From a virus, in the IMG/VR virus record IMGVR_UViG_3300017971_003303, positions 1 through 62,886 of that record: a DNA stretch of 62,886 nucleotides; one strand, given 5' to 3'. The notes beneath the pieces are model-generated. The model saw nothing but the letters and a program-made list of their open reading frames with translations. It was not told where the DNA came from and did not search any database. Made by a program: the position numbers and the translations under genes. Of this stretch, positions 7,974 to 54,452 are shown piece by piece. Positions within the stretch are counted from its first letter, which is position 1, and each line of letters starts with the position of its first letter.

Positions 7974-7994
7974 ATTTTTATTTTATTTTTTTTA
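7974..7994 (+). terminator. T-rich terminator at the convergent junction
   Basis: AAATTTTTATTTTATTTTTTTT ends the plus-strand arm and overlaps the 3' end of the minus-strand glycosyltransferase. The two transcription arms meet here with only 8 bp between coding regions. Confidence 0.45.
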
Positions 7995-9168
7995 ATATTT
8001 CTAGAGCTTTTTTAGCAGTATTGTTCCAAGTCCAATCTTTAACATCTGTTAAAGATTGTATACCTTTTAATTTTACTTCATTTCTATGTTCAAAACAATA
8101 CCTCATAATCTTTTTTAATTCTTCTACATTAGGAGTTGCCCACTCACATTCTTCGTAAAGAGTATCTGATGTAACAGGTTTTAATGTATATGGTATTTTC
8201 CAACTATTTCCTTCATTCATATAATCTACTTGTCCGCCAAAGTTTGTTTGTATAGTTGGTAAACCACAAGCCATAGCCTCTAATCCAGGGATATTAAAAG
8301 CATCAGCTAATTGTGCACATACATAAACATTTGTAGAGTTATATAAATTACATAAATTATTAGTATCCATGTCTTGTGCTAAAATAGTCACTTTTGATAA
8401 TGTATTAGGTAATTGTAATTTATTCATTTCAGTAAGAATATTATTAGGATGTAAGTATGCAGGATTTGTCTTTAAAATTAGTTCTACATTTTCACCTTCA
8501 TTAAATTCCTCCTTAAATGCTTTTAGAACATATCCAACACCTCCTCTATCATCATATCCACCTCTCCAACCTTTAACACATATAAATTTAAAAGTTTCAT
8601 TATTTTTAGGAGATTTTTTATCTAGAAATACAGATTGTCTTTTGTCAAAATTAGTATCTTTATTTAATGAATAAAATTTTGATAAGTCTACGCCATGTGG
8701 TACAATTTTTATTTTTCCTCTTATAGAGTAAATTAAATCACAATACTCCTTAGAATATTTGGTTTTATCATTTAAACAATCATTCATTGTAGTATATATA
8801 GCCATTCTTGTATGTTTACTAGGAACCCATATCTGACTAACTTTTTTATCCGCCAAATAAGGTATCCAATATTCAGGAATTCTTGTTCCTTCCCAAACTA
8901 AAAATCCAACAAAATGTTTTGAGTTATAAGAATTATAAGCTAACTTCCAAAAAGGTGGTGTTAATATTCCTATTGTTACATCTGGCTTCCTATAACCTTT
9001 TTGTATCATATTTAACTCTGCATCATTAACTTGTCTCATCCAATCAGAAGGTAGTTGTGATTCTAACTTTATATTATCATTGTATTTATACAGAGCATTA
9101 GTAAATTGTCTAGTATGACTAGCATAGCCAGTTGTTCCGAAAATGTTTCCTACTATATTTATTTTCAT
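7978..9168 (-). CDS. GT4-type glycosyltransferase
   Basis: The protein has 396 residues in a GT-B fold. The N-terminal domain starts MKINIVGNIFGTTGYASHT. The linker has KIVPHGVDLSKFYSL, the usual 'xPNGVD' site. The C-terminal domain carries 'LADAFNIPGLEAMACGLPTI', the E-x7-E nucleotide-sugar-binding region of family GT4. It would transfer a sugar from a nucleotide donor to a glycan acceptor. It is the last gene of the minus-strand glycan cluster and overlaps the stop codon of the small gene upstream (TAATG). The donor is unknown. Confidence 0.8.
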   Translation of the reverse strand: MKINIVGNIFGTTGYASHTRQFTNALYKYNDNIKLESQLPSDWMRQVNDAELNMIQKGYRKPDVTIGILTPPFWKLAYNSYNSKHFVGFLVWEGTRIPEYWIPYLADKKVSQIWVPSKHTRMAIYTTMNDCLNDKTKYSKEYCDLIYSIRGKIKIVPHGVDLSKFYSLNKDTNFDKRQSVFLDKKSPKNNETFKFICVKGWRGGYDDRGGVGYVLKAFKEEFNEGENVELILKTNPAYLHPNNILTEMNKLQLPNTLSKVTILAQDMDTNNLCNLYNSTNVYVCAQLADAFNIPGLEAMACGLPTIQTNFGGQVDYMNEGNSWKIPYTLKPVTSDTLYEECEWATPNVEELKKIMRYCFEHRNEVKLKGIQSLTDVKDWTWNNTAKKALEILKKIK

Positions 9169-9275
9169 TATCTTTTTTTAGGTTGTCCAATAGGTCCTTT
9201 TCCTTTTCCATATCCTTTTCCTTTTCCACTACCTTTACTTCTTATTTTAGACCCTGGACATGTTTTATTTGTCAT
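9168..9275 (-). CDS. Lys/Gly-rich microprotein
   Basis: A 35-residue reading frame (MTNKTCPGSKIRSKGSGKGK, then YGKGKGPIGQPKKR). It has a good ribosome binding site (TAAGGAGGTACTAAA before ATG), overlaps the gene upstream by 4 bp (ATGA) and the gene downstream by 1 bp (TAATG). This tight coupling argues that it is translated. It is extremely basic and probably binds nucleic acid, lipid head groups or an acidic partner. No family recognised. Confidence 0.5.
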   Translation of the reverse strand: MTNKTCPGSKIRSKGSGKGKGYGKGKGPIGQPKKR

Positions 9276-10111
9276 TTTAGTACCTCCTTATTATATTTTT
9301 TTAAAAAATCTCCAGTTTCTTTAAATCTTTTTTTACACCACTTCAAAAATGTTTCATTATCAATTTGTACACATTGTGAGTAATCTGGTCTTCTATTCCC
9401 ACCACTAGGTGTTTGGAGATGATATGCTATTGCCCCAGTATGTACTGCTAATTTATATCCTTTGAGAATTGCACTTAGTGAAAAAAATCCTTCCTCTCTA
9501 AATGCAACAGTAGTTAGATTATCAGGATATTTGATTTCCTTATTTATTTTAGATTTATATAGACAATTTGTTCTAAATTGATGTGTAGGTATTAATTTTG
9601 ATTCATTATAACAATATCCACATTCGTCATTTTGTTTTATTATATTTCCATCCTTATCAAATTCATGTAAATTCATTACTGGACCTAGTCTTTTTATTTG
9701 TCTTATAATTCTAGGATTGGATAATATAGGTATAAGTCCTGTAATCATATCATAACCTTTATTTATTCCTTCTAGTAATTTCTCTATATATGTTGGTTCC
9801 AAAATTACGTCATCATCTAATCTTAATGTTAATGGATTATCGAAATCGTCATCCTCAATACATTTGTTTCTAGCATAACAACATCCAAAGCTTTGGTCAA
9901 TTCTAACTATTTTAACTATATGATTTTCTAACTTTAATCTATTTACTAATGACATAAGAGGTTGACATTGTATTATTAAACCCCCACTAGCATCGTCAAT
10001 TATTATTATATCAAAATTTTGGTATGTTTGTGTTCTTAAACTTTGTAATAGTAGACATAGTTCTGTCCATCTATCACGTGTTGCAATATGTATTGTTATT
10101 CTATTATCCAT
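9272..10111 (-). CDS. GT2-type glycosyltransferase
   Basis: The protein has 279 residues in a GT-A fold. The N-terminus has ITIHIATRDRW followed by LLQSLRTQTYQNFDIIIIDDASGG, the classical GT2 opening. 'LRLDDDV' is the DxD metal/nucleotide-sugar site. The C-terminus contains FREEGFFSLSAILKGYK, the usual acceptor-side 'ED' region. It inverts configuration while moving a sugar from a nucleotide donor. It overlaps its neighbours by 8 and 4 bp in the glycan cluster. Confidence 0.8.
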   Translation of the reverse strand: MDNRITIHIATRDRWTELCLLLQSLRTQTYQNFDIIIIDDASGGLIIQCQPLMSLVNRLKLENHIVKIVRIDQSFGCCYARNKCIEDDDFDNPLTLRLDDDVILEPTYIEKLLEGINKGYDMITGLIPILSNPRIIRQIKRLGPVMNLHEFDKDGNIIKQNDECGYCYNESKLIPTHQFRTNCLYKSKINKEIKYPDNLTTVAFREEGFFSLSAILKGYKLAVHTGAIAYHLQTPSGGNRRPDYSQCVQIDNETFLKWCKKRFKETGDFLKKYNKEVLK

Positions 10112-10982
10112 TATAAAATTGTCTCCCTTTATCTATATACTTTTTCCAAGCAGATGTATTTTTTTTATAAAAATCTACCATTATATCTATACCATCAATT
10201 ATACTAACTTTTGGTTTAAACCCTTTATTTTGTATATCTGTTATATCTACATTTACATTCTGTGGTTGTGCCTTTTCTTCTGGTAATACTTTTATTTTTG
10301 ATTTTGATTTTGTCTTTTGTATGATGTAATTAGCTAACGCTATAAGTTTTACTTCTTCATCACCACTAATGTTATAAATTTTATTCCATTCTCCTTTCAT
10401 ACTTAATATTACTCCATCTACAAAATCGTCAATGTATGTGAAATCAAGTGTTTTTTCATCATCACCGTACAATCTTATGTCCTCATTTTTGAATGAAGCA
10501 CATAACCAGTTATTTATTAATCTAGATGTTTCATCAAACATAGGACCGTAAACTGTTGATGGTCTAATAATAATATATTTTAATCCATAACAATTAGCAT
10601 AAGCTTTTGTTAGTTCCTCAGTATATATCTTACTAGCTACATATGGATTCCTTTCTTTACTGAGAACTCTTGATGTTGATGCAACAATTATTTTTGGTAT
10701 TTTGTTTCTTTTACAAAATTCTAGTACAGCTAGTATACCATCAACATTATTTTTATGAGGTAAAAAAGGATTACTAATTGCCTCATTAATTTTACATTGT
10801 GCTGCAAAATGAAAAAATACATCTATTTTGTCCTTTATTTTATACTCCTTAAACATTAAATCGGATATATCAAAACCTTCCCTTTTATCTATTGCCATTA
10901 CACATTTATGACCTTCTTTGTCTAGTCTTTCTTTTAGGAATGTACCTATTAAACCCTTATTTCCTGTTATTGCGTAATTCAT
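10104..10982 (-). CDS. NAD-dependent sugar epimerase/dehydratase (HldD/GalE-like SDR)
   Basis: The protein has 292 residues in an extended SDR fold. The N-terminus AITGNKGLIGTFL is the NAD-binding GxxGxxG. FHFAAQCKI, STSRV and YVASKIYTEEL (the catalytic Y-x3-K) follow in order, with IIRPSTVYGP further on. It acts on nucleotide-activated sugars. Because it lies directly after kinase and nucleotidyltransferase genes of the HldE type, an epimerase acting on the activated heptose (HldD role) is plausible, but the sequence alone cannot tell it from a 4-epimerase or dehydratase. Confidence 0.75.
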   Translation of the reverse strand: MNYAITGNKGLIGTFLKERLDKEGHKCVMAIDKREGFDISDLMFKEYKIKDKIDVFFHFAAQCKINEAISNPFLPHKNNVDGILAVLEFCKRNKIPKIIVASTSRVLSKERNPYVASKIYTEELTKAYANCYGLKYIIIRPSTVYGPMFDETSRLINNWLCASFKNEDIRLYGDDEKTLDFTYIDDFVDGVILSMKGEWNKIYNISGDEEVKLIALANYIIQKTKSKSKIKVLPEEKAQPQNVNVDITDIQNKGFKPKVSIIDGIDIMVDFYKKNTSAWKKYIDKGRQFYNG

Positions 10983-11362
10983 TTTAAATCTGATGCATGT
11001 ATTTTATATTTAAGTGGTATTATCATTATTTTTCCTCCATAACTCTCTACGTATTTTTTTTCTTGTTGATTTATAGTGTTCATATTATAATCTCCTCCTT
11101 TGACATAGATATCTGGTTTTAATTCTATTATTTTTTTTAGATGGTTTTCCGAAATTATGACTTTATCTACATAACTTATACTCTCTATAATTTCTTTTCT
11201 TTGTTGTTGTGTGAATACAGGTTTCCTCTTTTTTTCTCTTATAAATTGTTTATCAGATGTTATGCTTACTATGAGATATCCTAATTTTTTTGCTTCCTTT
11301 AAATATTGAATATGTCCAGGATGTATTATATCAAAACATCCACAAGTAAATACACTCTTCAT
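10979..11362 (-). CDS. HldE C-terminal-type nucleotidyltransferase (RfaE2-like)
   Basis: The protein has 127 residues in the cytidylyltransferase-like fold. 'FTCGCFDIIHPGHIQYL' holds the HxGH nucleotide-binding motif, and 'YVKGGDY' plus the 'R...KP' loop are typical of RfaE domain II and glycerol-3-P cytidylyltransferases. The neighbouring kinase makes an ADP-heptose synthase assignment the best guess: ATP plus heptose-1-phosphate gives ADP-heptose. In bacteria the two domains are often fused as HldE; here they are separate genes overlapping by 4 bp. Confidence 0.75.
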   Translation of the reverse strand: MKSVFTCGCFDIIHPGHIQYLKEAKKLGYLIVSITSDKQFIREKKRKPVFTQQQRKEIIESISYVDKVIISENHLKKIIELKPDIYVKGGDYNMNTINQQEKKYVESYGGKIMIIPLKYKIHASDLK

Positions 11363-12201
11363 GGTCCTAGTTCCTCCCCACTAACTTGATACTGACCTCT
11401 ATGTGCACAAACTATTCCAGCAGCTTTATTTGCGTAAGGTATAGACTCATCCAAACTATATCCTTTACTTAACATAAGAGTTAATACACTAACAACCATA
11501 TCTCCTGCTCCTAAGACATCATAAACTTCTATTGCATTTGTCGGGAAATGCTTAGAATAGTTACGTCTAAATAATGTCATACCATTCCTACCTTGAGTAA
11601 CTATCACATTTTCAGACATTAATAATAGTGATTGTGCTATCTTTTCTAATTCACTTTCACCTGTTAAATTAATTGCTTCTTTTATTGTTGGCGTTAAAAT
11701 ATAGGAACCAGTATAATCTAATTTTTTTGGGTCAACAATAAGTGGTACATCTAACTTTAAAAGCCCTTCAAAAAATCTTTGTGTTATATCTCCTTTAGCA
11801 TAGTCCGAAACTACAATAAATTTTGGTGCTAATTCTCTAATATCACTTAACATGTTATCTATATATTCGTTTTTGTGTATAACTTCATCGTCTAGTCTTA
11901 ATATACCATTTACTCTAGTCTTATGTGTTGTTTTTGGTCTTTCATATAAAAATGCAGGAACTCTATTACTGTCAAGTAATTGTCTTACGATATCACCAGC
12001 ATTATCATTACCAATTGTACCAAATAAACATACATCCCCTCCGAGTGTTTTTATATTATTTGCTACATTAGCAGAAGCACCTAATTGATTTACTGTTTCT
12101 TCTATTCCAATAACAGGCACTTCCTCATTACCAATTTTAGTATACGGACCATTAACTTGTGTATCCAAAATTATATCTCCAACTACTACAATATTACTCA
12201 T
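11359..12201 (-). CDS. PfkB-family sugar kinase, HldE N-terminal-type
   Basis: The protein has 280 residues of ribokinase/PfkB fold. 'VGDIILDTQVNG', 'QLGASANVANNIKTLGG' and the C-terminal 'YDVLGAGDMVVSVLTL' (catalytic Asp in GAGD) match D-glycero-D-manno-heptose-7-phosphate kinase (RfaE domain I), notably the 'GDVxLDxYxxG...P' opening and 'GGAANVAxNxxxLG'. It would make heptose-1,7-bisphosphate. Together with the next gene it corresponds to HldE split in two. Confidence 0.75.
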   Translation of the reverse strand: MSNIVVVGDIILDTQVNGPYTKIGNEEVPVIGIEETVNQLGASANVANNIKTLGGDVCLFGTIGNDNAGDIVRQLLDSNRVPAFLYERPKTTHKTRVNGILRLDDEVIHKNEYIDNMLSDIRELAPKFIVVSDYAKGDITQRFFEGLLKLDVPLIVDPKKLDYTGSYILTPTIKEAINLTGESELEKIAQSLLLMSENVIVTQGRNGMTLFRRNYSKHFPTNAIEVYDVLGAGDMVVSVLTLMLSKGYSLDESIPYANKAAGIVCAHRGQYQVSGEELGP

Positions 12202-12731
12202 TTTAAAATCATATAAGCTATATTTACATTCTTTACAGTGTAAATTTCCTTACCCCTTTCAATTAATTCATTAATATATTTCTTTACATATGGACTATCA
12301 ATATAATCATGCCATACTATAACTTTTGGATTTAATTTAAATGCAAACTCAGTATCACCTTTAACATCATCATAAAAGTGTTCACCATCAATAAATACTA
12401 AATCGTAATTCTCATTATCTTGTATAATGTAATTCCTACTATTACATATCTTTATTTTAGCATTGGTTTTCCTACAATAGACACCTGTAGTTTTATCTTC
12501 ATTAAAATCATTGGTATCTTTGTCTATACTTTTTATATTAGTTATATTAGGATGTAACCACATTAACAATGTAGCATAACCTAGCCAAGTTCCTATTTCA
12601 AAAACAGACTTTAATTTATATTTGTTTATAAGTTCTATTAAAACTATATGTTCAGGTTTTTTACTAGTCCATTCATCTTTTGGATGTGGATACTTTTGAT
12701 AGAACCATTCAACGTATTTTTTGGATTTCAT
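12198..12731 (-). CDS. SAM-dependent methyltransferase (MT24-like)
   Basis: The protein has 177 residues. 'SVFEIGTWLGYATLLMWL' is the SAM-binding motif I, and 'YDLVFIDGEHFYDDVKGD' is the metal/acceptor motif of class I methyltransferases of the MT24/cephalosporin-hydroxylase-like group. It overlaps the transketolase half upstream by 23 bp and the kinase gene downstream by 4 bp. It probably methylates a sugar or glycan, as such enzymes do in LPS and flagellin glycan clusters. Confidence 0.65.
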   Translation of the reverse strand: MKSKKYVEWFYQKYPHPKDEWTSKKPEHIVLIELINKYKLKSVFEIGTWLGYATLLMWLHPNITNIKSIDKDTNDFNEDKTTGVYCRKTNAKIKICNSRNYIIQDNENYDLVFIDGEHFYDDVKGDTEFAFKLNPKVIVWHDYIDSPYVKKYINELIERGKEIYTVKNVNIAYMILK

Positions 12732-13203
12732 TTTTGGGAGCTTTCTTTAAGTACATAAATACTGGTCTTTTATGTTTAAACATATTCCTTGTCATTCGTA
12801 AAGTTTCTTTAATTGACTCTGGTTTTAGTAATTCAATTTTGAGTGCCTTACATAGTAAATCTAAATTACTAGTTACATGTGTTGGTCCTAAATCTGGATA
12901 ATCACCATAACTAACTAATTTAACATTTTGTTTTTGTTGCATAATGTTTAATTTAATAGATTCATAGGGTCTTTCTAAAAGAAATGGTGTAATTGTATAA
13001 ACTATTGGTATAAATCCTTCTTGAGCCATACCAGCAGCCATACCAATTGTCGCTTGTTCCGCAATACCAGTATTTATTAAATGGTCTGGTGTTTCTTCTT
13101 TTAACGTATTAAAAACGCCAAAACCTATATCTGCACATAAGACATAAATCCTAGGATTTTTTTTAATCAATTCAACCATTAATTTTCCAAACGAATATCT
13201 CAT
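12709..13203 (-). CDS. Transketolase-like pyrimidine-binding subunit, short
   Basis: The protein has 164 residues. 'GIAEQATIGMAAGMAQEG' carries the catalytic Glu of the TPP pyrimidine-binding domain, and 'DLGPTH' is the transketolase 'GPTH' site. The usual C-terminal transketolase domain (about 120 residues) is missing; the protein ends just after the pyrimidine domain. It is translationally coupled (4-bp overlap) to the N-terminal half. Split transketolases are the rule in archaea and in some sugar clusters. Expected reaction: two-carbon transfer, possibly making sedoheptulose-7-phosphate. Confidence 0.75.
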   Translation of the reverse strand: MRYSFGKLMVELIKKNPRIYVLCADIGFGVFNTLKEETPDHLINTGIAEQATIGMAAGMAQEGFIPIVYTITPFLLERPYESIKLNIMQQKQNVKLVSYGDYPDLGPTHVTSNLDLLCKALKIELLKPESIKETLRMTRNMFKHKRPVFMYLKKAPKNEIQKIR

Positions 13204-13928
13204 TTTAAATATTTTAATGCCTCCTCCATTACTTCTGGTCTTTCATGTAAGTAAATTACATGATATGTAGGATTTTTATGTAGGAATGGAATACCATAAC
13301 CTTTAATAGTATCAAAAATAACTACATTTAAACCTTTTTTTAATTTTTTCATTTTTGAAAGTCCTTTTATTGTATGTCCATTAGCTCTAGTTACATTATA
13401 TCCAAATGCTTCAAACTTTTTTTTCATTGTTTTATAGTCTTCATTCATTATTTTTTTAATAGAGTCTATCGCTTGATACTTGTTCCAATCCACCAAAATT
13501 ATCAAATTATCTATATTAAACTTATTTGCTATATTAAGACATTCCCAAATCATTCCCTCTTGCAATTCACCATCGCCAATTAAACAATAAACTTTAGTAT
13601 TGTCCTTTTTTAAATATTTTCTTGCATATGCTCTTCCTAAAGCTATAGATAATCCATGACCTAAAGAACCACCAGTAGCCATTATTCCTTGTTTCTCATT
13701 GTACTCAATATGAATTGTCCATGGTGGTTTTATTCCCTTAGTTTCTAAAACTACATGTAATGCAGGTGCACCATGACCTTTACTCATTATAAAAATGTCG
13801 TCCTCCTTCTTAACATTATCATATAAATATTTAACTATATCTACACAAGACATACTACTTCCATAATGCCCATGTTTTCTTTTAAATCCTTCAGTAATAA
13901 TTCTCCTTCTTAAATTTTTATTTAGCAT
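13200..13928 (-). CDS. Transketolase N-terminal (TPP-binding) subunit
   Basis: The protein has 242 residues. Residues HGHYGSSMSCVDIVKYLY, MSKGHGAPALHVVL and TGGSLGHGLSIALG line the active site. 'GDGELQEGMIWECLNIANKF' is the TPP/Mg motif. It pairs with the next gene to form a split transketolase. In this cluster it can supply sedoheptulose-7-phosphate, the entry substrate for the GmhA/HldE-type enzymes also encoded by this virus. Confidence 0.85.
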   Translation of the reverse strand: MLNKNLRRRIITEGFKRKHGHYGSSMSCVDIVKYLYDNVKKEDDIFIMSKGHGAPALHVVLETKGIKPPWTIHIEYNEKQGIMATGGSLGHGLSIALGRAYARKYLKKDNTKVYCLIGDGELQEGMIWECLNIANKFNIDNLIILVDWNKYQAIDSIKKIMNEDYKTMKKKFEAFGYNVTRANGHTIKGLSKMKKLKKGLNVVIFDTIKGYGIPFLHKNPTYHVIYLHERPEVMEEALKYLK

Positions 13929-13952
13929 TTTGTCCTCCTTTCATTGATAGTT

Positions 13953-15032
13953 TCATATAAAATTAACTCCACTAGGTTTATGTATATAATCCCATATAAA
14001 TTCGTTTATTTTATCATGTCTACAACAACCAGCACATTCTTTATGTACATTAAAATTATTAATCATTCTATCAACAATTTTCCAATATCTATCACTTTTT
14101 AATATTTCACCTAAACTTTGTTCGTTCAAATCTCCATAACAAAATTCTTCATTTCCAAATAAATAACCACATGGGTAACATTTACCATTACCACTAACTT
14201 GAAATAATAATGGTACATCTACACATCTATCATATGGTCTACGTTTACCTATTTTCATAAATTCCCATTTTACTACTATTGACGTATCATTAGTTGACAT
14301 TGATTCACACTTTTTTAGTACTTCAATTATTTCTGGTTTTTCATAGTCATTAACATCAAAAGATACATCACAAACGCTATTATCATCAGGTAAACTACAT
14401 TGCTTTATTAGAAAATAATCTACACCTAAATTAATTGCCAACTTACTTTCTTCAATCATTTCTTTGTCCATTAATCCCGGAACATAAACTGCTTGTAATC
14501 CTATATCACAAGTATATCCTTTTTTCCTCTTGATTTCTACTGCTCTTCTTATATTTTTAACTACTATATCAAACGCAGGTATTCTGTGTATTTTTCTATA
14601 ACCCTCACTAGTTCCTGCTGACAAATTAAATCTCATCCAAGTACAATTTCTCAATACGCAATCTATTTTTTCATCTGTATTTAATAGTACTCCATTAGTT
14701 GAAAAGGCCATATCCAATCCACCTTTTTTTCCTAAATTCATTGCATCGTAAATATGTGGATTTAATGTTGGTTCACCATCGCCTATAATTTCTATTGCCT
14801 TTACACCTAGCTTAGGAGCATCTTTAAATAATTTTAATAGCGGTTTTCTATCTATACTTGAACGTTGGTCTTTACCTTGAAATGTTCCATAACAATAAAT
14901 ACAATTAGCATTACACATTTTAGTGGCACCAATATTAATCAATAATGGTGCAACCTTTTTTCCTTTATCATAGTAATCTATAACTCTATCCATATGCCAA
15001 AGTATCTTAGTACTATCCATTAATCTTTTCAT
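13953..15032 (-). CDS. Radical SAM / SPASM-like enzyme
   Basis: About 359 residues. 'CNANCIYCYG' is the CxxxCxxC [4Fe-4S]/SAM cluster, followed by 'EIIGDGEPTLNP' (GGEP-type motif). The C-terminus has a cysteine set (KCYPCGYLFGNEEFCYG, then ECAGCCRHD), as in SPASM proteins that bind extra clusters. The start at 15032 is chosen because it overlaps the upstream gene little; an in-frame ATG at 15065 overlaps more, and one at 15020 is also possible. The substrate is unknown. Its place beside a LicD-like gene and glycosyltransferases suggests sugar or peptide modification of the glycan. Confidence 0.75.
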   Translation of the reverse strand: MKRLMDSTKILWHMDRVIDYYDKGKKVAPLLINIGATKMCNANCIYCYGTFQGKDQRSSIDRKPLLKLFKDAPKLGVKAIEIIGDGEPTLNPHIYDAMNLGKKGGLDMAFSTNGVLLNTDEKIDCVLRNCTWMRFNLSAGTSEGYRKIHRIPAFDIVVKNIRRAVEIKRKKGYTCDIGLQAVYVPGLMDKEMIEESKLAINLGVDYFLIKQCSLPDDNSVCDVSFDVNDYEKPEIIEVLKKCESMSTNDTSIVVKWEFMKIGKRRPYDRCVDVPLLFQVSGNGKCYPCGYLFGNEEFCYGDLNEQSLGEILKSDRYWKIVDRMINNFNVHKECAGCCRHDKINEFIWDYIHKPSGVNFI

Positions 15033-15627
15033 TATATAAACCTGTAAACCTCCCTTTAGTGTCACAAAATTTTAACCATTCCTCTAAACTTAAATAATCT
15101 ACAGAACTAACCCATCCCATTTTTTCCGCTCTCCATGGTTTAATTGGCCTAGCATATTCATTACAAGGTATTTTCCATTTTCTCCCATACTCTAATTCCA
15201 AGTATTTTTCAACTGGTTTAGGAACTTTAAATTCTTTACCTTTAAATTCTACTACATCAAATTCTTTTATGAATGGTTCAATATCCTCTGTAAATTGGAA
15301 CCAAACATCTAATAGAATACCATACTTATAAAAATGATGGTTAAGTTCCCATCCTGGATTTTTAAAATATGGTCCAGCTTTAAATCCATTTTTCATTAAA
15401 GCATCAAATAATTTTATTAAATTGTCTCTACTCGTTTTTACACCTATATCTAAATCTATTATCTTACCATTATCCCCAAATTTTTCTGTGTTACCATCCC
15501 TATAAATTGTTAAACATGTACCAAATACTAAAAAGAATTCTATATCTAATTTGTCACAAATTTCCTTAAACTCAAATAAGGATGTATAATCCAAATTTTC
15601 TACTTGTGGTTTTAGTTTTGGTTTCAT
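15013..15627 (-). CDS. LicD/fukutin-like phosphotransferase
   Basis: The protein has 204 residues. 'LDIEFFLVFGTCLTIYRDG' followed by 'IDLDIGVKTSRD' matches the LicD family (nucleotidyltransferase fold; E-x-W/F-L-x-x-G-T-L and DxDxD-like metal site). The C-terminus has 'PVEKYLELEYGRKWKIP', also typical. LicD proteins attach phosphocholine or other phospho-groups to surface glycans. It is embedded in the glycan cluster, overlapping the radical SAM gene. Confidence 0.65.
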   Translation of the reverse strand: MKPKLKPQVENLDYTSLFEFKEICDKLDIEFFLVFGTCLTIYRDGNTEKFGDNGKIIDLDIGVKTSRDNLIKLFDALMKNGFKAGPYFKNPGWELNHHFYKYGILLDVWFQFTEDIEPFIKEFDVVEFKGKEFKVPKPVEKYLELEYGRKWKIPCNEYARPIKPWRAEKMGWVSSVDYLSLEEWLKFCDTKGRFTGLYNEKING

Positions 15628-16364
15628 TTTTTGCCTGTTATAATACTAATTTTTAAATCTATAAAGCAATCGTTATCTGTAACAACCATATTGTAGTCTT
15701 TCTTGAAATAATCTTTTGCATTGACATGTAAATTATAAATTCTGTCTTTTTCTTTTTGTGACAAAACATGATTTTTTAACCATTTCTTTATACTAAATTT
15801 TTTTATAGTTATATTTTTAACTTTTATATTTTTAAATCCACTTCTTTTCATAAGTTTTACTAAATCATCATCGTAACAAACAACTCTATCCAATTTATTT
15901 TTAAAGATATTTTTAAAATCTGATTTTACTCTTTTTGAAGGTGGGACTCCTTCAACTATAATTATTGTACCACCTTTCTTAAGTGTTTTATAGCATATAT
16001 CCATTGCCTTTTGTTGTTTTGATACAATGTAATGGAAAACATATCTACATGTAATTTTATCAAAACTATTTTCAATAAATATGTCATTAAGTATATCATT
16101 ATTTATATATAAAATATTATTCATTGGTTTACATTTAAAAATCATATCACTAGATTTATCAATACCTACAACTTGTTTCACTTTGTTGGCTACAAGATTC
16201 GATATTATTCCTGTACCAGAACCTACATCCAAAACAATGTCATTTTTATTAAATTTTCCAATACTCAGAATTGATTTTAAAACTGATTTATTCTTTGTTC
16301 TTTGTTTATCATCATAATTTTCCGCTCTACTCTTCCAATAGTTTTTAGATGTTTTAATTGTCAT
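15624..16364 (-). CDS. UbiE-like SAM methyltransferase
   Basis: The protein has 246 residues. 'VLDVGSGTGIISNLVANKVK' is SAM motif I, 'VVGIDKS' motif II, and 'FDKITCRYVFHYI' plus 'LKKGGTIIIVEG' complete the class I methyltransferase fold. It overlaps both neighbours by 4 and 11 bp within the glycan cluster. The acceptor (sugar, lipid or small molecule) cannot be told from sequence. Confidence 0.75.
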   Translation of the reverse strand: MTIKTSKNYWKSRAENYDDKQRTKNKSVLKSILSIGKFNKNDIVLDVGSGTGIISNLVANKVKQVVGIDKSSDMIFKCKPMNNILYINNDILNDIFIENSFDKITCRYVFHYIVSKQQKAMDICYKTLKKGGTIIIVEGVPPSKRVKSDFKNIFKNKLDRVVCYDDDLVKLMKRSGFKNIKVKNITIKKFSIKKWLKNHVLSQKEKDRIYNLHVNAKDYFKKDYNMVVTDNDCFIDLKISIITGKK

Positions 16365-17076
16365 GTTTCATAGCCTCTTTAATTTTATTAATATCTATAT
16401 TCTTTTGTGTTTGTTCATAAATTATAGTTGACATTTGACCATGTTTTACTTCTTCATCACTATAAATGAATTTATGATTTTCATCACTATCAAAATAACC
16501 CCAATTAACTGACCTATGGTCTATAACATTACCTTCAATGTAAAAAAATAATCCAATACCTTCTCCCACAGCTATAAAATAAGGTTCTAAACTATACTGT
16601 CTTAGTCTTGGATATACATAATAACCTAATGTACGAACAATTTTTCCGGATACCACTTCTGCATTAGGATAGCTTCTACCATCAATCCCTTTACAATAAG
16701 ATATTCCCCAACCATTATTTTTGTCTAATGGGTCCAACATTAACTTGTCCCAACCCTTAATTAAATAATAATGGTCATCGTTTATATTTTGATAATAAGG
16801 TATATTAGGATATACATTTGTTGATATATAATTTAAAGCGTCTACCATAAAAAACTTATCATCTCCATAAATGACATTTCTTCCTTTTAACACTTTTTTA
16901 TACTCTTTTAAATATGGGTCGCCAGTCCAAACATAGAAAATAATTTCTGTTCCATCCGATTTTGTCTTGTCAAATGATTCTAATAACTCTACTACTTTAT
17001 GAGGTCTTTTTCTAGTACAGCATATCGAAAGTAATTTAGCTTCCTTTACTTTGTTATCATTAACTTGTATTTCCAT
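16354..17076 (-). CDS. Putative GT-A-like glycosyltransferase
   Basis: The protein has 240 residues. The opening 'LLSICCTRKRPHKVVELLESF' and the central 'NINDDHYYLIKGWD' (DxD-like) resemble GT-A fold enzymes found in sugar clusters. It lacks a clear family signature beyond this. It overlaps the GT9 gene upstream by 17 bp. Probably another transferase of the glycan cluster. Confidence 0.5.
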   Translation of the reverse strand: MEIQVNDNKVKEAKLLSICCTRKRPHKVVELLESFDKTKSDGTEIIFYVWTGDPYLKEYKKVLKGRNVIYGDDKFFMVDALNYISTNVYPNIPYYQNINDDHYYLIKGWDKLMLDPLDKNNGWGISYCKGIDGRSYPNAEVVSGKIVRTLGYYVYPRLRQYSLEPYFIAVGEGIGLFFYIEGNVIDHRSVNWGYFDSDENHKFIYSDEEVKHGQMSTIIYEQTQKNIDINKIKEAMKHDN

Positions 17077-18058
17077 TTTTATTATAATAATTTAATATGT
17101 CTTTCTTTATTTTTTCCAAGTTATTTTCTTTTGCATTATACAATCTCCATAGTGATTTGTCTTTTGTAATAGCATTAAAAAACCATGTTCTTTCCCACCT
17201 TGGATGATTACAAATAGTTAACTTATCCTTTTGTTGCTGGTATAATTTTATAGATGTAAAACCACTATCATTACCTAACATAACTTTACATTTATCTATT
17301 AAGTAAGCCATTTCCTCAAAGTATAAAATATTGTCCCCCATTAAATTGATAAATTTTCCTTTGTAACTTCCATCATCAACCCCCATTAATATAGGTTTTA
17401 TGTCATTGGAATTACAAAATTCTATTATGTCATTAAAGAAATTATCACCTTCTTTATGTGCATCTCCTTCTTCTTTCTTCCTCACATGTATTAATACATG
17501 TTTTTTATTAGTTTTTAATATGTCATCTATGAACTCTCTTATTATTCTAGTAGGTTTAAATACAAAAGTATTTCTATCATTACTAACTCTTACATACTTA
17601 TTTTTATCCCAGTCCCACATTAATATACATTCAGTACATAGAGCATCTATGAATAATGTTTTTTCGTCTACATTTTGTCCTACAAATTTTCTTAGTAGTG
17701 GGGGCCTCCAAAACATAAATTCATCTAAAAATTTATTTGCTTCTTCCTGACTCAACTCTTCTGTTGTATCGTCAAATATTTCTCCATTTTTATCTAACCA
17801 AAAGTCTCTATTAAGTGATGGTGATATTTCTATGACATTTGGAGTTAATTTTCTTATCATATCTAATGACATCCTCTCTATTGTATGAGGATAATTCCTA
17901 AAATAATATACACTATCAGTAAACACTATAGTATTGAATTTTGAAATTTTGTATTCCTCCTGTATTTTCTTAGTAGCACAAATTGCAGGCCAAACATCAC
18001 CAAGTCCACCCCTAATGTATACTACCATCTTATCTATTTTATTTTTATCCAAATCCAT
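17060..18058 (-). CDS. GT9-like (heptosyltransferase-type) glycosyltransferase
   Basis: The protein has 332 residues. 'VVYIRGGLGDVWPAICATKK' is the N-terminal GT9 motif (RxxGLGD), 'HVLIHVRKKEEGD' the mid strand, and 'LIDKCKVMLGNDSGFTSIKL' the C-terminal donor-site motif (GxDSGxxH-like, but with F in place of the usual His region). GT9 enzymes move ADP-heptose onto LPS-type acceptors. Since the same virus carries HldE-type and GmhA-type genes, this is the natural user of the activated heptose. The lack of a canonical DTGxxH/DSGxxH His makes the exact donor uncertain. Confidence 0.65.
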   Translation of the reverse strand: MDLDKNKIDKMVVYIRGGLGDVWPAICATKKIQEEYKISKFNTIVFTDSVYYFRNYPHTIERMSLDMIRKLTPNVIEISPSLNRDFWLDKNGEIFDDTTEELSQEEANKFLDEFMFWRPPLLRKFVGQNVDEKTLFIDALCTECILMWDWDKNKYVRVSNDRNTFVFKPTRIIREFIDDILKTNKKHVLIHVRKKEEGDAHKEGDNFFNDIIEFCNSNDIKPILMGVDDGSYKGKFINLMGDNILYFEEMAYLIDKCKVMLGNDSGFTSIKLYQQQKDKLTICNHPRWERTWFFNAITKDKSLWRLYNAKENNLEKIKKDILNYYNKNGNTS

Positions 18059-18740
18059 TCATTCCCTCCCATTTTTTTATTACTATTTTACTCTCATCTT
18101 CCTCTAACCATGTTGTTTCTTGTTCTGCTAAATCTTTAAAGCCTAATGTTTTATACAATTTTCTTTTTTCTTGTCTCAATTTTTTTGTCATATGACCGTA
18201 ATGATGTATTGGTACAAAATATATGTCTCCTGATTTACAATTATGAGGTATGGACGACCCATGAATATCCATTTCATTAAATTTAAAATGTGAAAGTACT
18301 TTATATATTTTATGGACTAATCTAGCATGTTTTAAATTTCCATCCATGTCTTTTACCATTACATAGTGATTTTTATCTCCTCTCATTTCAAATAATGGAC
18401 AACCAATACTTTCGTCCCTCCAATTTAATAGGATACTTAAAAATTCGTTCTTATTTATTTCTGGTACATGTTCATCTATATCTAAATTCCATATCCATTG
18501 ACAATTTTCCTCCCTTGCCATTTGTAATATTTTTTGATAATCTCTACTTTGATTTCTAGGAAGGTTTTGTACAAGATACCTTTTAGTATACTTATGATTA
18601 ATCAATTTTTGTCTTACTTCTTCATCTGCTCCATTATCCACAACAAATACGTCATTTACAGGTAATATCTCTAAGTTACTTAACCATTCATCTATAAATT
18701 GTTTTCCTCCTTTGACTACTAATCCTATTCCTATTTTCAT
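18045..18740 (-). CDS. GT2-like glycosyltransferase
   Basis: The protein has 231 residues. 'IGLVVKGGKQFIDEWLSNLE' and 'VFVVDNGADEEVRQKL' form the GT2 nucleotide-binding start, and 'WIWNLDIDEHVPE' is the DxD-type 'DxDE' site typical of the GT2-92 branch. It overlaps its neighbours by 14 and 4 bp. A glycosyltransferase role is likely; sugars unknown. Confidence 0.7.
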   Translation of the reverse strand: MKIGIGLVVKGGKQFIDEWLSNLEILPVNDVFVVDNGADEEVRQKLINHKYTKRYLVQNLPRNQSRDYQKILQMAREENCQWIWNLDIDEHVPEINKNEFLSILLNWRDESIGCPLFEMRGDKNHYVMVKDMDGNLKHARLVHKIYKVLSHFKFNEMDIHGSSIPHNCKSGDIYFVPIHHYGHMTKKLRQEKRKLYKTLGFKDLAEQETTWLEEDESKIVIKKWEGMNGFG

Positions 18741-20002
18741 TTTGATTCACCTATTAATATTTGATTGTTGTACATCCAATTACTAGGGCTATCTGTAATT
18801 TTAAAATATTTTGTTAATTTACTTAACCACCAATCTTTACTTCTTTTAATTTTATGTGTAGGGTCTGCATGTAAATTAGGATTACCTTCAAAAGGTATGG
18901 AGAAAATAAAACTATTAGCTTTATTATAAATGGATTTTAAAACATTATCTAATTTGTCCTCATCAACGTGTTCCAATATATCTATACATAAAATTAAATC
19001 CCATGTATCATTATGTATTGTTTTATTATTAAATTTTGTTATGTCACTAACTTCTATATTTATATCATATGGACTATTTTTAGTTGCCCACTCACTTTTA
19101 TCAATACCTAAATACGTACATCCAAAAAATTCTTGAAATACATATCCATAATGTCCCACACCACAACCCAAATCCAAAACAGATTTTGGTTTAAACTTTT
19201 TATACCATTCGTTTACCATTAAAAAATGTTTTGTTTCTATACTTTTCCTATTCATGAAATATATTTCGTCCCTATCAATTCCAAAATTATTCAAAATAAC
19301 ATCAGGAATCTCCAAAATATTAAATTGTTTTTTAGGATACATACCAAAAATATGACCAAAGTACCAGTTCCTTAAATAATCTTTAGTATGCATATTTGAT
19401 TTTTTTGTATGATTTTTATATTTTTTATTTATATTAAAAACATTTGATATATAAGATAAATGCCATATTGTACCTGACTGTATTTGTCCAGATAATTTAT
19501 TACTTTCAGTTGATTGTAGTATTGGATGTTCAACTTCTGGATAAAATAAATCCTCTGTAACTTTGAATAATCTATGTGGGACAAAATGTATATCATGTGT
19601 TGAATCTTCATGTCCTAAGTCACCAATAAAATGTCTCATTCTTACACTCCATAATATTTTGTGTTGATTTTTTGGTACATTATTTATGAACGTTCTTATA
19701 TCGTCTAATTTATCAATAACTTCGTCTGCATCAAGAACTAAACACCACCAACCCAAATAATTCTCTTTAATATAGTCTAAATAAAAGTTTCTTTGTTTAC
19801 CATTCATTCCTAAGTCTTCTTGATTATAATTTTGAAATATCGGTTGTACATTTTGTTCAAAATTTGAAACTATAACATTAGTATCATCAGTACTTCCACC
19901 ATCACAATAAACTATGTCATCAGCATCTTTAACTGATTCTAAAGACATACCAATAAATTTTTCACAATTTTGTCCCATAATAACGACTACGAGTTTTTCC
20001 AT
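18737..20002 (-). CDS. GT2 glycosyltransferase fused to SAM methyltransferase
   Basis: The protein has 421 residues. Residues 1-230 are a GT2 domain (VVVIMGQNCEKFIGMSLESV, then VYCDGGSTDDT, and the 'LVLDADEVID' DxD site). Residues about 265-400 are a class I methyltransferase ('SVLDLGCGVGHYGYVFQEFF', then 'DLILCIDILEHVDEDKLD'). The fusion suggests that the sugar added by the first domain, or its neighbour, is methylated by the second. It overlaps the B12-radical SAM gene upstream by 16 bp. Confidence 0.8.
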   Translation of the reverse strand: MEKLVVVIMGQNCEKFIGMSLESVKDADDIVYCDGGSTDDTNVIVSNFEQNVQPIFQNYNQEDLGMNGKQRNFYLDYIKENYLGWWCLVLDADEVIDKLDDIRTFINNVPKNQHKILWSVRMRHFIGDLGHEDSTHDIHFVPHRLFKVTEDLFYPEVEHPILQSTESNKLSGQIQSGTIWHLSYISNVFNINKKYKNHTKKSNMHTKDYLRNWYFGHIFGMYPKKQFNILEIPDVILNNFGIDRDEIYFMNRKSIETKHFLMVNEWYKKFKPKSVLDLGCGVGHYGYVFQEFFGCTYLGIDKSEWATKNSPYDINIEVSDITKFNNKTIHNDTWDLILCIDILEHVDEDKLDNVLKSIYNKANSFIFSIPFEGNPNLHADPTHKIKRSKDWWLSKLTKYFKITDSPSNWMYNNQILIGESK

Positions 20003-21207
20003 TGTTCCTCCGCAATGTTTCTAACATCTTCAATTTGTTGTGCTGACATACCATTGGTTCTATGAAATGCTTTTGGTGGTTTTTTTCCTGCTTCCAAATA
20101 TTTAGTATAGTCTCTATCTAATATTTCAATCCCGAATTCCTGTGGTTGTCTCCAAATAGGTGTTCCTGGGAAAGGTGTCATGATATAAAAATCTGCACTC
20201 GTTAAGCCTTCTTGTTTTAATCCTAATGCAAAATTTATGGTACGAGTAGCATCAGCGAGTGTTTCATTTGGGAGTCCAAACATAAAGAATCCCTTTGATT
20301 TTATTCTATATTTTGTAAGAGTCCTAACAGCATTTAAATTGTCTTGTGTTGTCATTCTTTTACTAACATCATCTAACCTTTCGTCTACACCACTCTCAAT
20401 ACCTAAACTAACCCAGGAACATCCAGCTTGTGATAAATTTCTTACTAAATCATCATCTAACATATTTGCTCTTGTAGTTAATCTAAATCTTATATCTTCA
20501 TCTCCTATTTTATCTAGTAGTCCTAATGTTCTTCGTCTATTAGTAGTAAATGCATCATCCAAAAAGTAAATATCTCTAAAACCATATTCTTTTAATTGTC
20601 TAATATCTCTTGTAACATAGTCATCAGTGTGATATCTAACTCTTCTATTCATATTACCACAAAATATACATCCATTGGCACATCCTCTACTAGTTATAGA
20701 TGTACTAGCTTTTCTTCCATCTTGTCTAAATGTATAATCAGCCATGTTAACAAATTCTCTTCCTGGTATTGCCATCCTTCTCAAATTAGTAGGATTTGGT
20801 GTGACTACTTTATTTGGTAGACCATGTTTAATCATTACAGGGGTAATTTCTTCACCTTCACCTACTACAACAGTATTAAAATAAGGAGATAATGTTTGTG
20901 GCATAGCTGTTGCATGATATCCTCCAGCTATAGTTCTAATACCTCTACTAGCACACATTTGACCAAGTCTTACTGCTTCTGGATAAACAGGTGATGTATA
21001 AACACTCACACCAACATATTCAGGTGTTTTATTATCTAATTCATATACTAATCTTTCCATACTACAATGGTCCATATCTCTTACTCTTACTTTAATACCA
21101 GCTTCTTTTAAACTACTAGCTATTGACAATAAACCTATTGGAGGTCTATCACCTGCATTAGTTAGTATATCTCTACTACTTGGATTTATTAACATTACAT
21201 CTGACAT
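19987..21207 (-). CDS. B12-binding-type radical SAM enzyme
   Basis: The protein has 406 residues. The N-terminal part (INPSSRDILTNAGDRPPIGL, then VGVSVYTSPVYPEAV and TIAGGYHATAMPQTL) is a cobalamin-binding Rossmann fold. The middle has 'SRGCANGCIFCGN', the CxxxCxxC radical SAM site, then 'YFLDDAFT', 'SLGIESGVDERLD' and 'MFGLPNE'. The family includes methyltransferases acting on unreactive carbons and ring-modifying enzymes. Codon use appears richer in G/C than its neighbours, hinting at a recent origin elsewhere. Substrate unknown. Confidence 0.8.
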   Translation of the reverse strand: MSDVMLINPSSRDILTNAGDRPPIGLLSIASSLKEAGIKVRVRDMDHCSMERLVYELDNKTPEYVGVSVYTSPVYPEAVRLGQMCASRGIRTIAGGYHATAMPQTLSPYFNTVVVGEGEEITPVMIKHGLPNKVVTPNPTNLRRMAIPGREFVNMADYTFRQDGRKASTSITSRGCANGCIFCGNMNRRVRYHTDDYVTRDIRQLKEYGFRDIYFLDDAFTTNRRRTLGLLDKIGDEDIRFRLTTRANMLDDDLVRNLSQAGCSWVSLGIESGVDERLDDVSKRMTTQDNLNAVRTLTKYRIKSKGFFMFGLPNETLADATRTINFALGLKQEGLTSADFYIMTPFPGTPIWRQPQEFGIEILDRDYTKYLEAGKKPPKAFHRTNGMSAQQIEDVRNIAEEQWKNS

Positions 21208-22364
21208 TTTTTAATCAACCCATCCCATTGTTTTATAACAGTATTCCATGTATAATTTTTCTTAACCTTTTCAACACCCCTTCTTCCTAATGTTTGTCTT
21301 AATCTTTTATCATTATATAATACTTCTAGAGCTTCTGCTGCTTTGTCTATATCCATAACACCTCTCTCCACATTCCAACTTCCTGTTAAATCTGTCACGA
21401 TAGGAACAGGAATACCACATTGTCCATCGTCCATCAGTAGTTCTTGAGTTGTAGTGAAATCAGTAACTACAGAAGGAATACCAGCACCAGCAGCCTCTAT
21501 AGTTGGTACACCAAATCCTTCGCCTGATGTAGACAAGAAAAATACATCCATAAGATTATATATTTCATTCATATCCTCATAATTAAACCCCTTATAAAAA
21601 CTCATACCACTCCATATTACTCTATTTTGTATGCCCAATCTTTTTACTAGCTCCATGCTATCAAAAACAGCGGCTCCATCATATGGGTCAGAGTGACAAA
21701 ATAAAACTACGTCTTGATGATTTTTAGCAAACTTAGCAAAAGCTTTAAACATTCTATCCGGCATTTTTCTTCCTTGATTTCTATAAACACTTCCTACTAC
21801 AAACTTATCGTGTAAATTCCATTTTTGTTTTATTAATAATCTTTGAGAATTTGTTAATGGTTTGTATACTGAAGTATCAATAGCATGTGGAATATAATGT
21901 GAATTAATATTATATAAATCATGTGCTTGTTTTTGTGCAAATTTACTCATAGCTACTGGTACGTTACATTTTCTTAAAATACCATCACATCTTAATGGTA
22001 AACCCCCTTCACCATCTGAAGGATAGTAAAAAATAGTTTTTGCAGGAGCATAATCTAATTGCATGTACCAAGGATATAACATAAATGTATCTAATAACAC
22101 TCCAAAGAAATCTGGTTTTAATTCTCTTATCCTTGGAACTAGTAAATCCTTTGAGTAAGGTTCTTTTCCTGTGCCCATAGTGGTAAATTTTAGTTCTCTT
22201 CCATCCTCAAACTTAACATAAGGTATATTTTGTCCAACGTAGTTATGACCTTGATAATAACATTCATGTCCTAAATCTGTCAAACCATTTAATATATTAC
22301 TAGAAATTGTTGCAAATCCAGTACAAGTAAACGGGCTATCTGACAACCACATAATTTTTGCCAT
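21195..22364 (-). CDS. GT4-type glycosyltransferase
   Basis: The protein has 389 residues in a GT-B fold. 'MWLSDSPFTCTGFATISSNI' opens the acceptor domain, 'HYIPHAIDTSVYKPL' is the linker, 'FVVGSVYRNQGRKMPDRMFKA' starts the donor domain and 'FFLSTSGEGFGVPTIEAAGA' is the E-x7-E motif. It is the most upstream sugar-cluster gene on this strand. Its ATG shares a base with the stop of the AbrB-like gene before it, so it may be co-regulated with that gene. Confidence 0.8.
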   Translation of the reverse strand: MAKIMWLSDSPFTCTGFATISSNILNGLTDLGHECYYQGHNYVGQNIPYVKFEDGRELKFTTMGTGKEPYSKDLLVPRIRELKPDFFGVLLDTFMLYPWYMQLDYAPAKTIFYYPSDGEGGLPLRCDGILRKCNVPVAMSKFAQKQAHDLYNINSHYIPHAIDTSVYKPLTNSQRLLIKQKWNLHDKFVVGSVYRNQGRKMPDRMFKAFAKFAKNHQDVVLFCHSDPYDGAAVFDSMELVKRLGIQNRVIWSGMSFYKGFNYEDMNEIYNLMDVFFLSTSGEGFGVPTIEAAGAGIPSVVTDFTTTQELLMDDGQCGIPVPIVTDLTGSWNVERGVMDIDKAAEALEVLYNDKRLRQTLGRRGVEKVKKNYTWNTVIKQWDGLIKKCQM

Positions 22365-22600
22365 TATACAATAACTTTTATAGGTTCCTCCTTCTTAATA
22401 TGTCCACATCCACTTTCTAAAATTATAGAAGTACCACTTGTCCTTATACTAAAAAAACAATTGTGATATTCAAAAGCAATTTCTTTAGGAATTGTCATTC
22501 CATAAACATCACCAGTTTTATTATTAGTCACTAATTTCCTTAATTTCCTAAATAATGACGGACTTCTTCTAAAATTAAATACCCTCTCATCTGTAACCAT
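22364..22600 (-). CDS. AbrB/SpoVT-like small DNA-binding protein
   Basis: The protein has 78 residues. 'GDVYGMTIPKEIAFEYHNC' resembles the swapped-hairpin AbrB core (a G-x-x-x-x-x-IPKEI-A pattern). The ATG at 22600 lies 24-26 nt after a TATA-like box, so translation may start at the first base of the transcript; the in-frame GTG at 22606 is less likely. It heads the glycan cluster and could regulate it. Confidence 0.5.
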   Translation of the reverse strand: MVTDERVFNFRRSPSLFRKLRKLVTNNKTGDVYGMTIPKEIAFEYHNCFFSIRTSGTSIILESGCGHIKKEEPIKVIV

Positions 22601-30468: not shown

Positions 30469-30472
30469 TTAA

Positions 30473-30775
30473 TTATTTCTTTTGTTTCTTTCTACACTTT
30501 CTACAAACATATTTTGTGTTCTTCCATTTTTCATATCTCTTTCTTCCGGCTTTCTTTTTTACACCACAAACACTACATGTAAGAGTAAGTCCTGATTTTT
30601 TCATAGGTTTCTTTTCTCCGTTTGGCATTTTTACTTTTTCCTCCTTTTCGTAATATTCATCAGCATCAAATTCTTCTAGTTCTTTCATAGTACAATAACT
30701 ACACTTAACTTTCTCAGTATCATCTCCAACATTATCTACTAATATTCCACATTTATGACAATTTAAACTCTTCAT
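30473..30775 (-). CDS. Double zinc-ribbon protein
   Basis: About 100 residues. Two CxxC pairs at the N-terminus (CHKC, CSYC) and two at the C-terminus (CSVC, CRKC) are spaced as zinc ribbons, joined by an acidic then basic linker (MPNGEKKPMKKSG). The C-terminal tail is Lys-rich. The ATG at 30775 overlaps the stop upstream (ATGA); the ORF could begin earlier at 30802. Possibly a nucleic-acid-binding or transcription-related protein. Confidence 0.55.
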   Translation of the reverse strand: MKSLNCHKCGILVDNVGDDTEKVKCSYCTMKELEEFDADEYYEKEEKVKMPNGEKKPMKKSGLTLTCSVCGVKKKAGRKRYEKWKNTKYVCRKCRKKQKK

Positions 30776-40327: not shown

Positions 40328-40329
40328 AT

Positions 40330-40399: not shown

Positions 40400-40416
40400 T
40401 TTTGGAGGTAAGAAAA

Positions 40417-53900: not shown

Positions 53901-54452
53901 ATGATAAAAAGTATTATAACTTCAAAAACAAGAGATTATTATAGTATGTTACAACATACAATTAATGAACTTGACAAAGATAAATTAGATATTGTAGGGA
54001 ATATTTTATATAAAGCGAAGTTAGAAGGGAGTAGTATTTTTTTAATGGGCAACGGTGGTAGTGCTTCTACTTGTAATCATATGTGTAATGATTTTATGAA
54101 GATTAGTGGTTTGAAAGTATTTTCATTAGTAAATGTTCCTGTAATTACAGCTTACGCTAATGACATAAGTTATGACAGTATTTTTGTTGAACAATTAAAA
54201 ACGGTATTGTCTCCTAGAGATATTGTAATTGGTATTTCTGGTAGTGGTAATAGCGTTAATGTTTTAGAAGGATTACGTTATGCAAATACACATGGAGGGA
54301 TTACAATAGGATTATTAGGATTTGATGGTGGTAAGGCTAAAGATATTGCTAAATACGTTGTTTTAGTTAAATCAAAGGACTATGGAATTATCGAAGATTT
54401 ACATTTAAGTTTTGGACATTATCTTTCTAAAAAAATACTTGATAAAAAATAA
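53901..54452 (+). CDS. gmhA: Sedoheptulose-7-phosphate isomerase-like (GmhA/SIS family)
   Basis: The protein has 183 residues, close to GmhA's usual 190. 'SIFLMGNGGSASTCNHMCND' is the GNGGSA-A motif, 'DIVIGISGSGNSVNVLEGL' the second phosphate-binding SIS loop, and 'IIEDLHLSFGH' carries the catalytic Glu and His. GmhA turns sedoheptulose-7-phosphate into D-glycero-D-manno-heptose-7-phosphate. It stands apart in the structural arm, while the next steps (HldE-type kinase and transferase) are at 11-12 kb on the other strand. Confidence 0.85.
   Translation: MIKSIITSKTRDYYSMLQHTINELDKDKLDIVGNILYKAKLEGSSIFLMGNGGSASTCNHMCNDFMKISGLKVFSLVNVPVITAYANDISYDSIFVEQLKTVLSPRDIVIGISGSGNSVNVLEGLRYANTHGGITIGLLGFDGGKAKDIAKYVVLVKSKDYGIIEDLHLSFGHYLSKKILDKK

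Follow-up and report, generated by a model that had tools for sequence, protein, structure and literature searches.

Heptose-type genes in an archaeal-type tailed virus

Whether a tailed virus of archaea can make its own activated heptose is the question raised by IMG/VR record IMGVR_UViG_3300017971_003303, a linear sequence of 62,886 bases that was analyzed as a whole (the window, on which all positions are numbered). Its glycan gene cluster contains genes for a heptose-type kinase and a nucleotidyltransferase (NTase), and a gmhA-like isomerase gene is present at a second site. An earlier note, made from the sequence alone, had proposed that the virus makes its own heptose glycan by a nearly complete ADP-heptose pathway. 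The reading towards which we lean, with about as much doubt as confidence, is narrower: a GmhA-HldA-HldC-type route, completed by a host phosphatase, would yield a nucleoside diphosphate (NDP)-heptose-like sugar, and would have joined a glycan cluster that the virus already had. This reading is supported by the family of the kinase, the overlap of the NTase gene with it, the joint absence of the three genes from a relative, a comparable gene arrangement on an archaeal-type contig, and parallels in phages.

The kinase, nucleotidyltransferase, and isomerase

The firmest assignment of the set is that of the kinase, which by sequence comparison is clearly HldA-like. It scored 212.6 bits against TIGR02198, the model of the HldE kinase domain (under the equivalog cut-off of 345 bits), while the best other family, ribokinase, scored 69. 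The best match among solved structures was HldA (PDB 4e84, 118 bits; runner-up, 45). The protein is 33–39% identical to canonical HldA/HldE kinases and retains the catalytic motifs DYAKG, VDPK, and GAGD. In a tree it grouped, with moderate support, with canonical kinases; the kinases of cyanophages lay apart from it, as did a paralogous set of bacterial kinases with which it shares 18–21% identity. The PfkB kinase of HldE type named earlier was thus borne out by profile, solved structure, identity, and motifs. Descent from the NTase–kinase fusions of certain bacterial loci (see below) was ruled out by the 18–21% identity and the separate clade.

A scan of IMG/VR with the single kinase sequence gave zero matches, while a scan with a kinase alignment gave 191 loci, the best 80 of which were kept. 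Among these 80, an NTase gene was nearby in 47 and a gmhA gene in nine, and three phage contigs (L121, L147, L172) carried SPASM, kinase, GmhA, and NTase genes together.

The NTase gene overlaps the kinase gene by four bases. The best model for its product was rfaE_dom_II, the adenylyltransferase domain of HldE (117 bits; curated cut-off, 181.5), TagD scoring 68, and the HxGH and KGGDY motifs are retained. The third gene lies just upstream of DUF2213 and capsid genes. Its SIS-type product matched the gmhA model best, at 87.6 bits (cut-off, 209).

Joint absence from a syntenic relative

No match was found in IMG/VR with the GT9-like glycosyltransferase (GT) protein of the cluster as the only query; a scan with a two-sequence alignment of this protein identified contig G023 (55.9 kb), which was read end to end. 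Its synteny with the window extends across the replication, structural, and glycan genes, and it retains the GT4, GT2, B12-binding radical S-adenosylmethionine (SAM), GT9-like, SPASM, TktN, TktC, methyltransferase, and short-chain dehydrogenase/reductase (SDR) genes. Neither the kinase nor the NTase gene is present in the whole contig; their site is occupied by a radical-SAM-like gene (CxxxCxxC-type motif, by eye). The 479-base stretch upstream of the capsid-side gene contains no gmhA; this is the homologous site only, since the contig ends there and a copy elsewhere is possible. Thus, three heptose-type genes, located at two sites 42 kb apart in the window, are jointly absent from G023 (gmhA at its homologous site), which supports the view that they form one functional set. 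Kinase and gmhA genes were also not found in a 95-kb relative, G007. Conversely, because G023 keeps the transketolase and GT9-like genes without the three heptose-type genes, the former do not appear to be tied to heptose. A search for the same gene set in related viral contigs, which had been suggested as a check, therefore has a divided outcome: all three genes are missing from G023 (gmhA at its homologous site), while NTase or GmhA genes lie near the kinase gene in other viral loci.

On an archaeal-type contig, L106, a gene for fused HldE is followed close by by that of an SDR 52% identical to the SDR of the window. Both the SDR and the kinase–NTase pair thus seem to be at home in archaeal surface-glycan loci. 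The same IMG/VR contig encodes an STT3/AglB-like oligosaccharyltransferase (L106:16576-19296); it may be archaeal chromosomal sequence in a viral collection, or a virus with host glycosylation genes.

Departures from the canonical enzymes

Several observations weigh against a heptose route. The NTase lacks EDTP, has HAS at the position of canonical STT, and has a short C-terminus that ends ...PLKYKIHASDLK. Heptose 1-phosphate nucleotidyltransferases carry an (F/L)XXGXSTT motif (PMC11461863), which is not found in the window NTase, and the tree places the protein outside the clade of canonical enzymes (UFBoot 98). In GmhA, the zinc ligands H64, E68, Q175, and H183 are reported to be fully conserved in orthologues, and the channel residue D61 is important, the D61A variant retaining 6% activity (PMC5705639). 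The corresponding ligand positions of the window protein are H60, D64, E165, and H173, a departure from the canonical H-E-Q-H pattern (E68 to D and Q175 to E), and D61 is replaced by T. Profile searches of the window, a fragment that may be incomplete, detected no HldD and no GmhB/HisB-type phosphatase (the same phosphatase search was positive in 14 of 14 control genomes), and no proven heptosyltransferase is present in it. The earlier statement that only GmhB is missing was therefore correct for GmhB, but HldD and a proven heptosyltransferase are absent too. HldD is optional for D,D-heptose. Finally, the joint absence described above rests on one fully read relative, G023, and a more distant one, G007.

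The D and E ligand substitutions of the isomerase also occur in phage Cr30 and in a protein of a fecal phage contig, which argues for a recurring GmhA-like subfamily; decay of a single gene as the cause of the substitutions is ruled out by this recurrence. For both the NTase and the isomerase, then, the family named in the earlier note stands as the best model, but the scores are under the cut-offs, and each protein fails the residue-level tests of its canonical family; the isomerase gene, moreover, lies in the structural module, outside the cluster.

An alternative that we consider rather unlikely is that the kinase and NTase serve to activate another sugar or an alditol. The product could, for instance, be CDP-activated and be transferred as a phosphodiester by the LicD-like protein, and the SIS protein would isomerize another sugar phosphate. 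The lost motifs and non-canonical grouping of the NTase would be accounted for in this way, as would the atypical GmhA-like ligands. In agreement with such a role, the LicD and SPASM genes of related archaeal viruses lie beside a related NTase gene, with no kinase gene; these LicD-linked NTases, however, lack the KGGDY that the window NTase has kept, and the kinase is clearly nearest to HldA.

The SDR and the GT9-like protein

The epimerase of the cluster had been taken for HldD. Judged by profile scores, the SDR is not HldD: it scored 37.5 bits against the HldD model TIGR02197 (cut-off, 274.6), compared with 104 bits for dTDP-glucose dehydratases and 72 for LegB, and is an extended SDR. Its catalytic segment, STSR...YVASK, lacks the Asp-Glu pair of 4,6-dehydratases.

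The GT9-like protein had no Pfam or NCBIfam match at normal thresholds; against PF01075 (Glyco_transf_9) it scored 13.9 bits across 24 residues, and the cut-off of 22 was not reached. When three viral sequences were combined in one profile, the C-terminal half matched the donor half of GT9 with a probability of 84% (P 8e-6), while the best of 50 shuffles gave 1.1%. The AlphaFold pLDDT was 36.5 without an alignment and 54.3 with three sequences, values too low to rely on. With the low-confidence model as a query, the best viral fold match was a phage protein annotated RfaF (E 9e-4), and the matches among solved structures were mostly other glycosyltransferases and UDP-GlcNAc 2-epimerases, the GT9 structure 3tov being at rank 19 (E 0.057). 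The protein is probably a GT-B transferase. What remains of the proposed GT9-type transferase is a remote profile–profile relation.

These results bear on the full pathway of the earlier note, in which transketolase would make sedoheptulose 7-phosphate, the SDR would be HldD-like, and the GT9-like protein would be the heptosyltransferase. We consider it unlikely. The TktN, TktC, methyltransferase, kinase, NTase, and SDR genes do form a tight operon in which neighbors overlap by 4 to 23 bases; some loci of bacteria and phages bring together genes for SPASM, GmhA, NTase, and kinase, and the kinase gene occurs with a split transketolase in two viral loci (L108/L109, among the best 80 of 191). But the SDR scores far under HldD, and G023 keeps transketolase, SDR, and GT9-like genes without the heptose-type ones. 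The remote GT9 similarity and the RfaF-annotated fold match point towards a heptosyltransferase, but the GT9 match is confined to the donor half and is under the cut-off.

The split transketolase and SPASM module

The transketolase at 12709-13928 is split, as had been noted: Pfam assigned the thiamine-diphosphate and pyrimidine domains to separate genes, TktN and TktC, and no Transketolase_C domain was found in TktC. The two genes overlap in the window, while a 93-codon open reading frame separates them in G023 (L207:6781-7062). Archaeal virus contigs that have no heptose genes encode TktN and TktC with identities of 70–76% and 70–83%, respectively. SPASM is 50–74% identical in nine related viral contigs, and 39–52% in 28 bacterial loci. 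In the closest contigs retrieved by transketolase or SPASM queries, identities were 70–83% for the transketolase subunits and 52–74% for SPASM; a family search with working controls found kinase and gmhA genes in none of the archaeal virus contigs from these queries. Since the transketolase is kept in relatives without the three heptose-type genes, it does not seem to be tied to the heptose cassette. The pattern argues for a separate radical-SAM/thiamine-enzyme module common to several archaeal tailed viruses.

SPASM, TktN, and TktC are 74, 76, and 83% identical to their L008 counterparts, versus 50, 70, and 74% for G023. The orf240 and LicD genes are present in the L008 group and not in G023. 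The GT9-like and SDR genes that flank this part of the cluster are nearer to G023. We infer that the orf240-LicD-SPASM-TktN-TktC block (12709-17076) was exchanged between virus groups, and that the cluster is a mosaic. An exchange of this kind, together with the short C-terminus and lost motifs of the NTase, could also mean that the heptose-type genes were acquired recently and are decaying, kept only because they hitchhike on an exchanged cassette, and that they encode no functional pathway. The open reading frames of the region are all intact and overlapping, and the kinase catalytic motifs are kept, and it is to this explanation that we give the least credence.

The SPASM alignment was also used to scan bacterial and archaeal genomes, and 28 loci were found, all bacterial. 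A split transketolase lies near SPASM in about 10 of them; these surface-glycan loci (Magnetococcales, Nitrospirota, Geobacter, and others) resemble the window in combining SPASM (39–44% identity) with TktN/TktC, and several also have an RmlD-like SDR. In seven of the 28 (L015, L020, L023, L025, L029, L038, L040), genes for a GmhA homologue and an NTase–kinase fusion lie beside an E1 alpha/beta pair, the thiamine enzyme thus being of a different type from that of the window; L029 has both types. The genomes of these seven also hold a separate canonical heptose kinase, and most of them canonical gmhA and NTase genes; the seven loci, paralogous to the canonical genes, possibly encode an undescribed sugar pathway. 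The association of SPASM, thiamine enzymes, and heptose-type genes recurs.

A speculative and very improbable extension is that a single nucleotide sugar is acted on in turn by SPASM, split transketolase, SDR, and the HldA/HldC/GmhA-type enzymes: the radical enzyme would introduce a keto group into an activated sugar that resembles heptose, the transketolase would add a two-carbon unit, and the SDR would reduce the product to an undescribed branched or chain-extended sugar. If so, the same logic would apply to bacterial surface-glycan loci with SPASM, GmhA, NTase–kinase fusions, and thiamine-diphosphate enzymes.

The proposed route and known systems

In the three-enzyme route that we favor, the gene identities (at family level), the kinase assignment, and the joint presence and absence of the genes are observed; the substrate, the order of the steps, the phosphatase of the host, and where the sugar ends up are inferred. 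The GmhA-type isomerase would convert a ketose phosphate, most likely sedoheptulose 7-phosphate, to an aldose 7-phosphate, and the HldA-type kinase would place a phosphate onto C1. The 7-phosphate would be removed by a phosphatase, presumably the host's, as none is encoded in the fragment, and the HldC-type NTase would activate the sugar. Cluster transferases and the SDR would then direct the activated sugar, probably further modified, to a glycan of the virion or of the cell that it infects. Sedoheptulose 7-phosphate may be fed to the route here by the transketolase, which is not its general role.

Compared with the canonical ADP-heptose enzymes, the kinase is closely related and the GmhA and HldC types are recognizable, but GmhB and HldD are absent and the NTase and GmhA active sites differ. 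Cyanophages P-SSM2 and S-CAM1 likewise have an NTase-kinase-GmhA-SDR set in a tailed virus, near sugar-modifying genes. Unlike the window virus, they have bacterial hosts, gmhA is inside the cluster beside tail-fibre genes, kinase and NTase belong to separate clades, and no transketolase is annotated at the cluster. The Caulobacter phage Cr30 cluster (epimerase, GT, D,D-heptose kinase, GmhA) has the closest phage GmhA (37% identity), with the same altered zinc-ligand pattern, but a kinase that differs from that of the window: it is 14% identical and does not align with PfkB-type kinases. Presumably, it is of the GHMP type. As cited in PMC11461863 and PMC11573728, Tang et al. (2024) described NDP-heptose enzymes from both viruses and archaea. 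The viruses have no phosphatase, as is the case in the window, and Methanococcus maripaludis has been suggested to make ADP-heptose.

The claim of rarity was thus overstated: phages and archaea are already known to have similar heptose-type genes, and the window is an unusual variant. This variant is set apart by its archaeal tailed virus, separate kinase and NTase genes, gmhA in a structural module, and the adjoining SPASM/transketolase module. Of a heptose glycan made by the virus itself, what stands is the co-occurrence of HldA-, HldC-, and GmhA-type genes beside a large glycan cluster.

The virus and the cluster layout

The window carries genes for terminase, portal, capsid, tail tube, tape measure, and baseplate. 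Its replication genes encode a PCNA-like protein and a DNA polymerase of family B, and a further one weakly matches the primase small subunit. This combination of structural and archaeal-type replication genes is that of an archaeal tailed virus (Caudoviricetes), as the earlier note had said. The best-scoring polymerase relatives among those listed are from the haloarchaeal tailed viruses HVTV-1/HCTV-5, and a related contig, L005, has a thermosome gene; both support an archaeal host. The latter gene (L005:3803-5209) encodes an archaeal chaperonin subunit, with homologues in L008, L009, L011, and L012, a group with the NTase-LicD-SPASM module.

Genes for a TGT/DpdA-like protein, QueC, GTP cyclohydrolase I, and a QueE-like radical-SAM protein at 26808-32043 probably serve the modification of DNA with 7-deazaguanine. 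Such sets have been described in other tailed viruses of archaea (PMC8651126), in a paper in which no sugar or glycosyl terms were found. One tRNA-Met (CAT) gene is present at 40329-40400.

All open reading frames listed by the earlier note were recovered at the positions given there. Those of the cluster form a minus-strand run (7978-22364) in which neighbors overlap by 4–53 bases or nearly abut, that is, one operon-like array (Table 1).

Table 1. Genes of the glycan cluster and the separate isomerase gene.
Feature	Position	Strand	Evidence
GT4-type glycosyltransferase GT4a, distal cluster end	7978..9168	-	Pfam Glycos_transf_1 E 1e-8; 49% in G023
GT2-type glycosyltransferase GT2a	9272..10111	-	Pfam Glycos_transf_2 E 5e-14; 63% in G023
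Extended SDR, NDP-sugar epimerase-like, not HldD	10104..10982	-	Epimerase E 3e-33; 66% in G023
HldC-like nucleotidyltransferase, diverged	10979..11362	-	rfaE_dom_II 117 bits
HldA-like sugar kinase (PfkB family)	11359..12201	-	TIGR02198 212.6 bits
Methyltransferase (Methyltransf_24)	12198..12731	-	Pfam E 7e-7
TktC, pyrimidine-binding domain only	12709..13203	-	Transket_pyr E 9e-16
TktN, thiamine-diphosphate domain	13200..13928	-	Transketolase_N E 4e-21
SPASM radical-SAM enzyme, center of conserved module	13953..15032	-	Radical_SAM E 5e-17, SPASM E 5e-7
LicD-like protein	15013..15627	-	LicD E 0.0017 (under cut-off); 36-43% in seven related viral contigs
Class I methyltransferase	15624..16364	-	Methyltransf_11 E 4e-15
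orf240, conserved	16354..17076	-	No significant Pfam match; 51-57% in six related viral contigs
GT9-like (GT-B) putative glycosyltransferase	17060..18058	-	Profile-profile to GT9 donor half; 53% in G023
GT2-like glycosyltransferase GT2b	18045..18740	-	Weak Glyco_tranf_2_4 E 2e-4; 62% in G023
GT2-methyltransferase fusion	18737..20002	-	Pfam; 56% in G023
B12-binding radical-SAM enzyme	19987..21207	-	Radical_SAM E 3e-23, B12-binding E 2e-15
GT4-type glycosyltransferase GT4b	21195..22364	-	Pfam E 4e-14; 67% in G023
GmhA-like SIS isomerase, within structural gene module	53901..54452	+	gmhA 87.6 bits

Implications

The pairing of a SPASM radical-SAM enzyme with a thiamine-diphosphate enzyme, as yet unstudied, occurs in archaeal viruses and in surface-glycan loci of several bacterial phyla. 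If the three-enzyme route is correct, an archaeal virus would itself encode the means of making an activated sugar that is known chiefly from the outer membrane of bacteria, and would offer a system for asking why archaea and their viruses make heptose, a question posed in PMC11573728.

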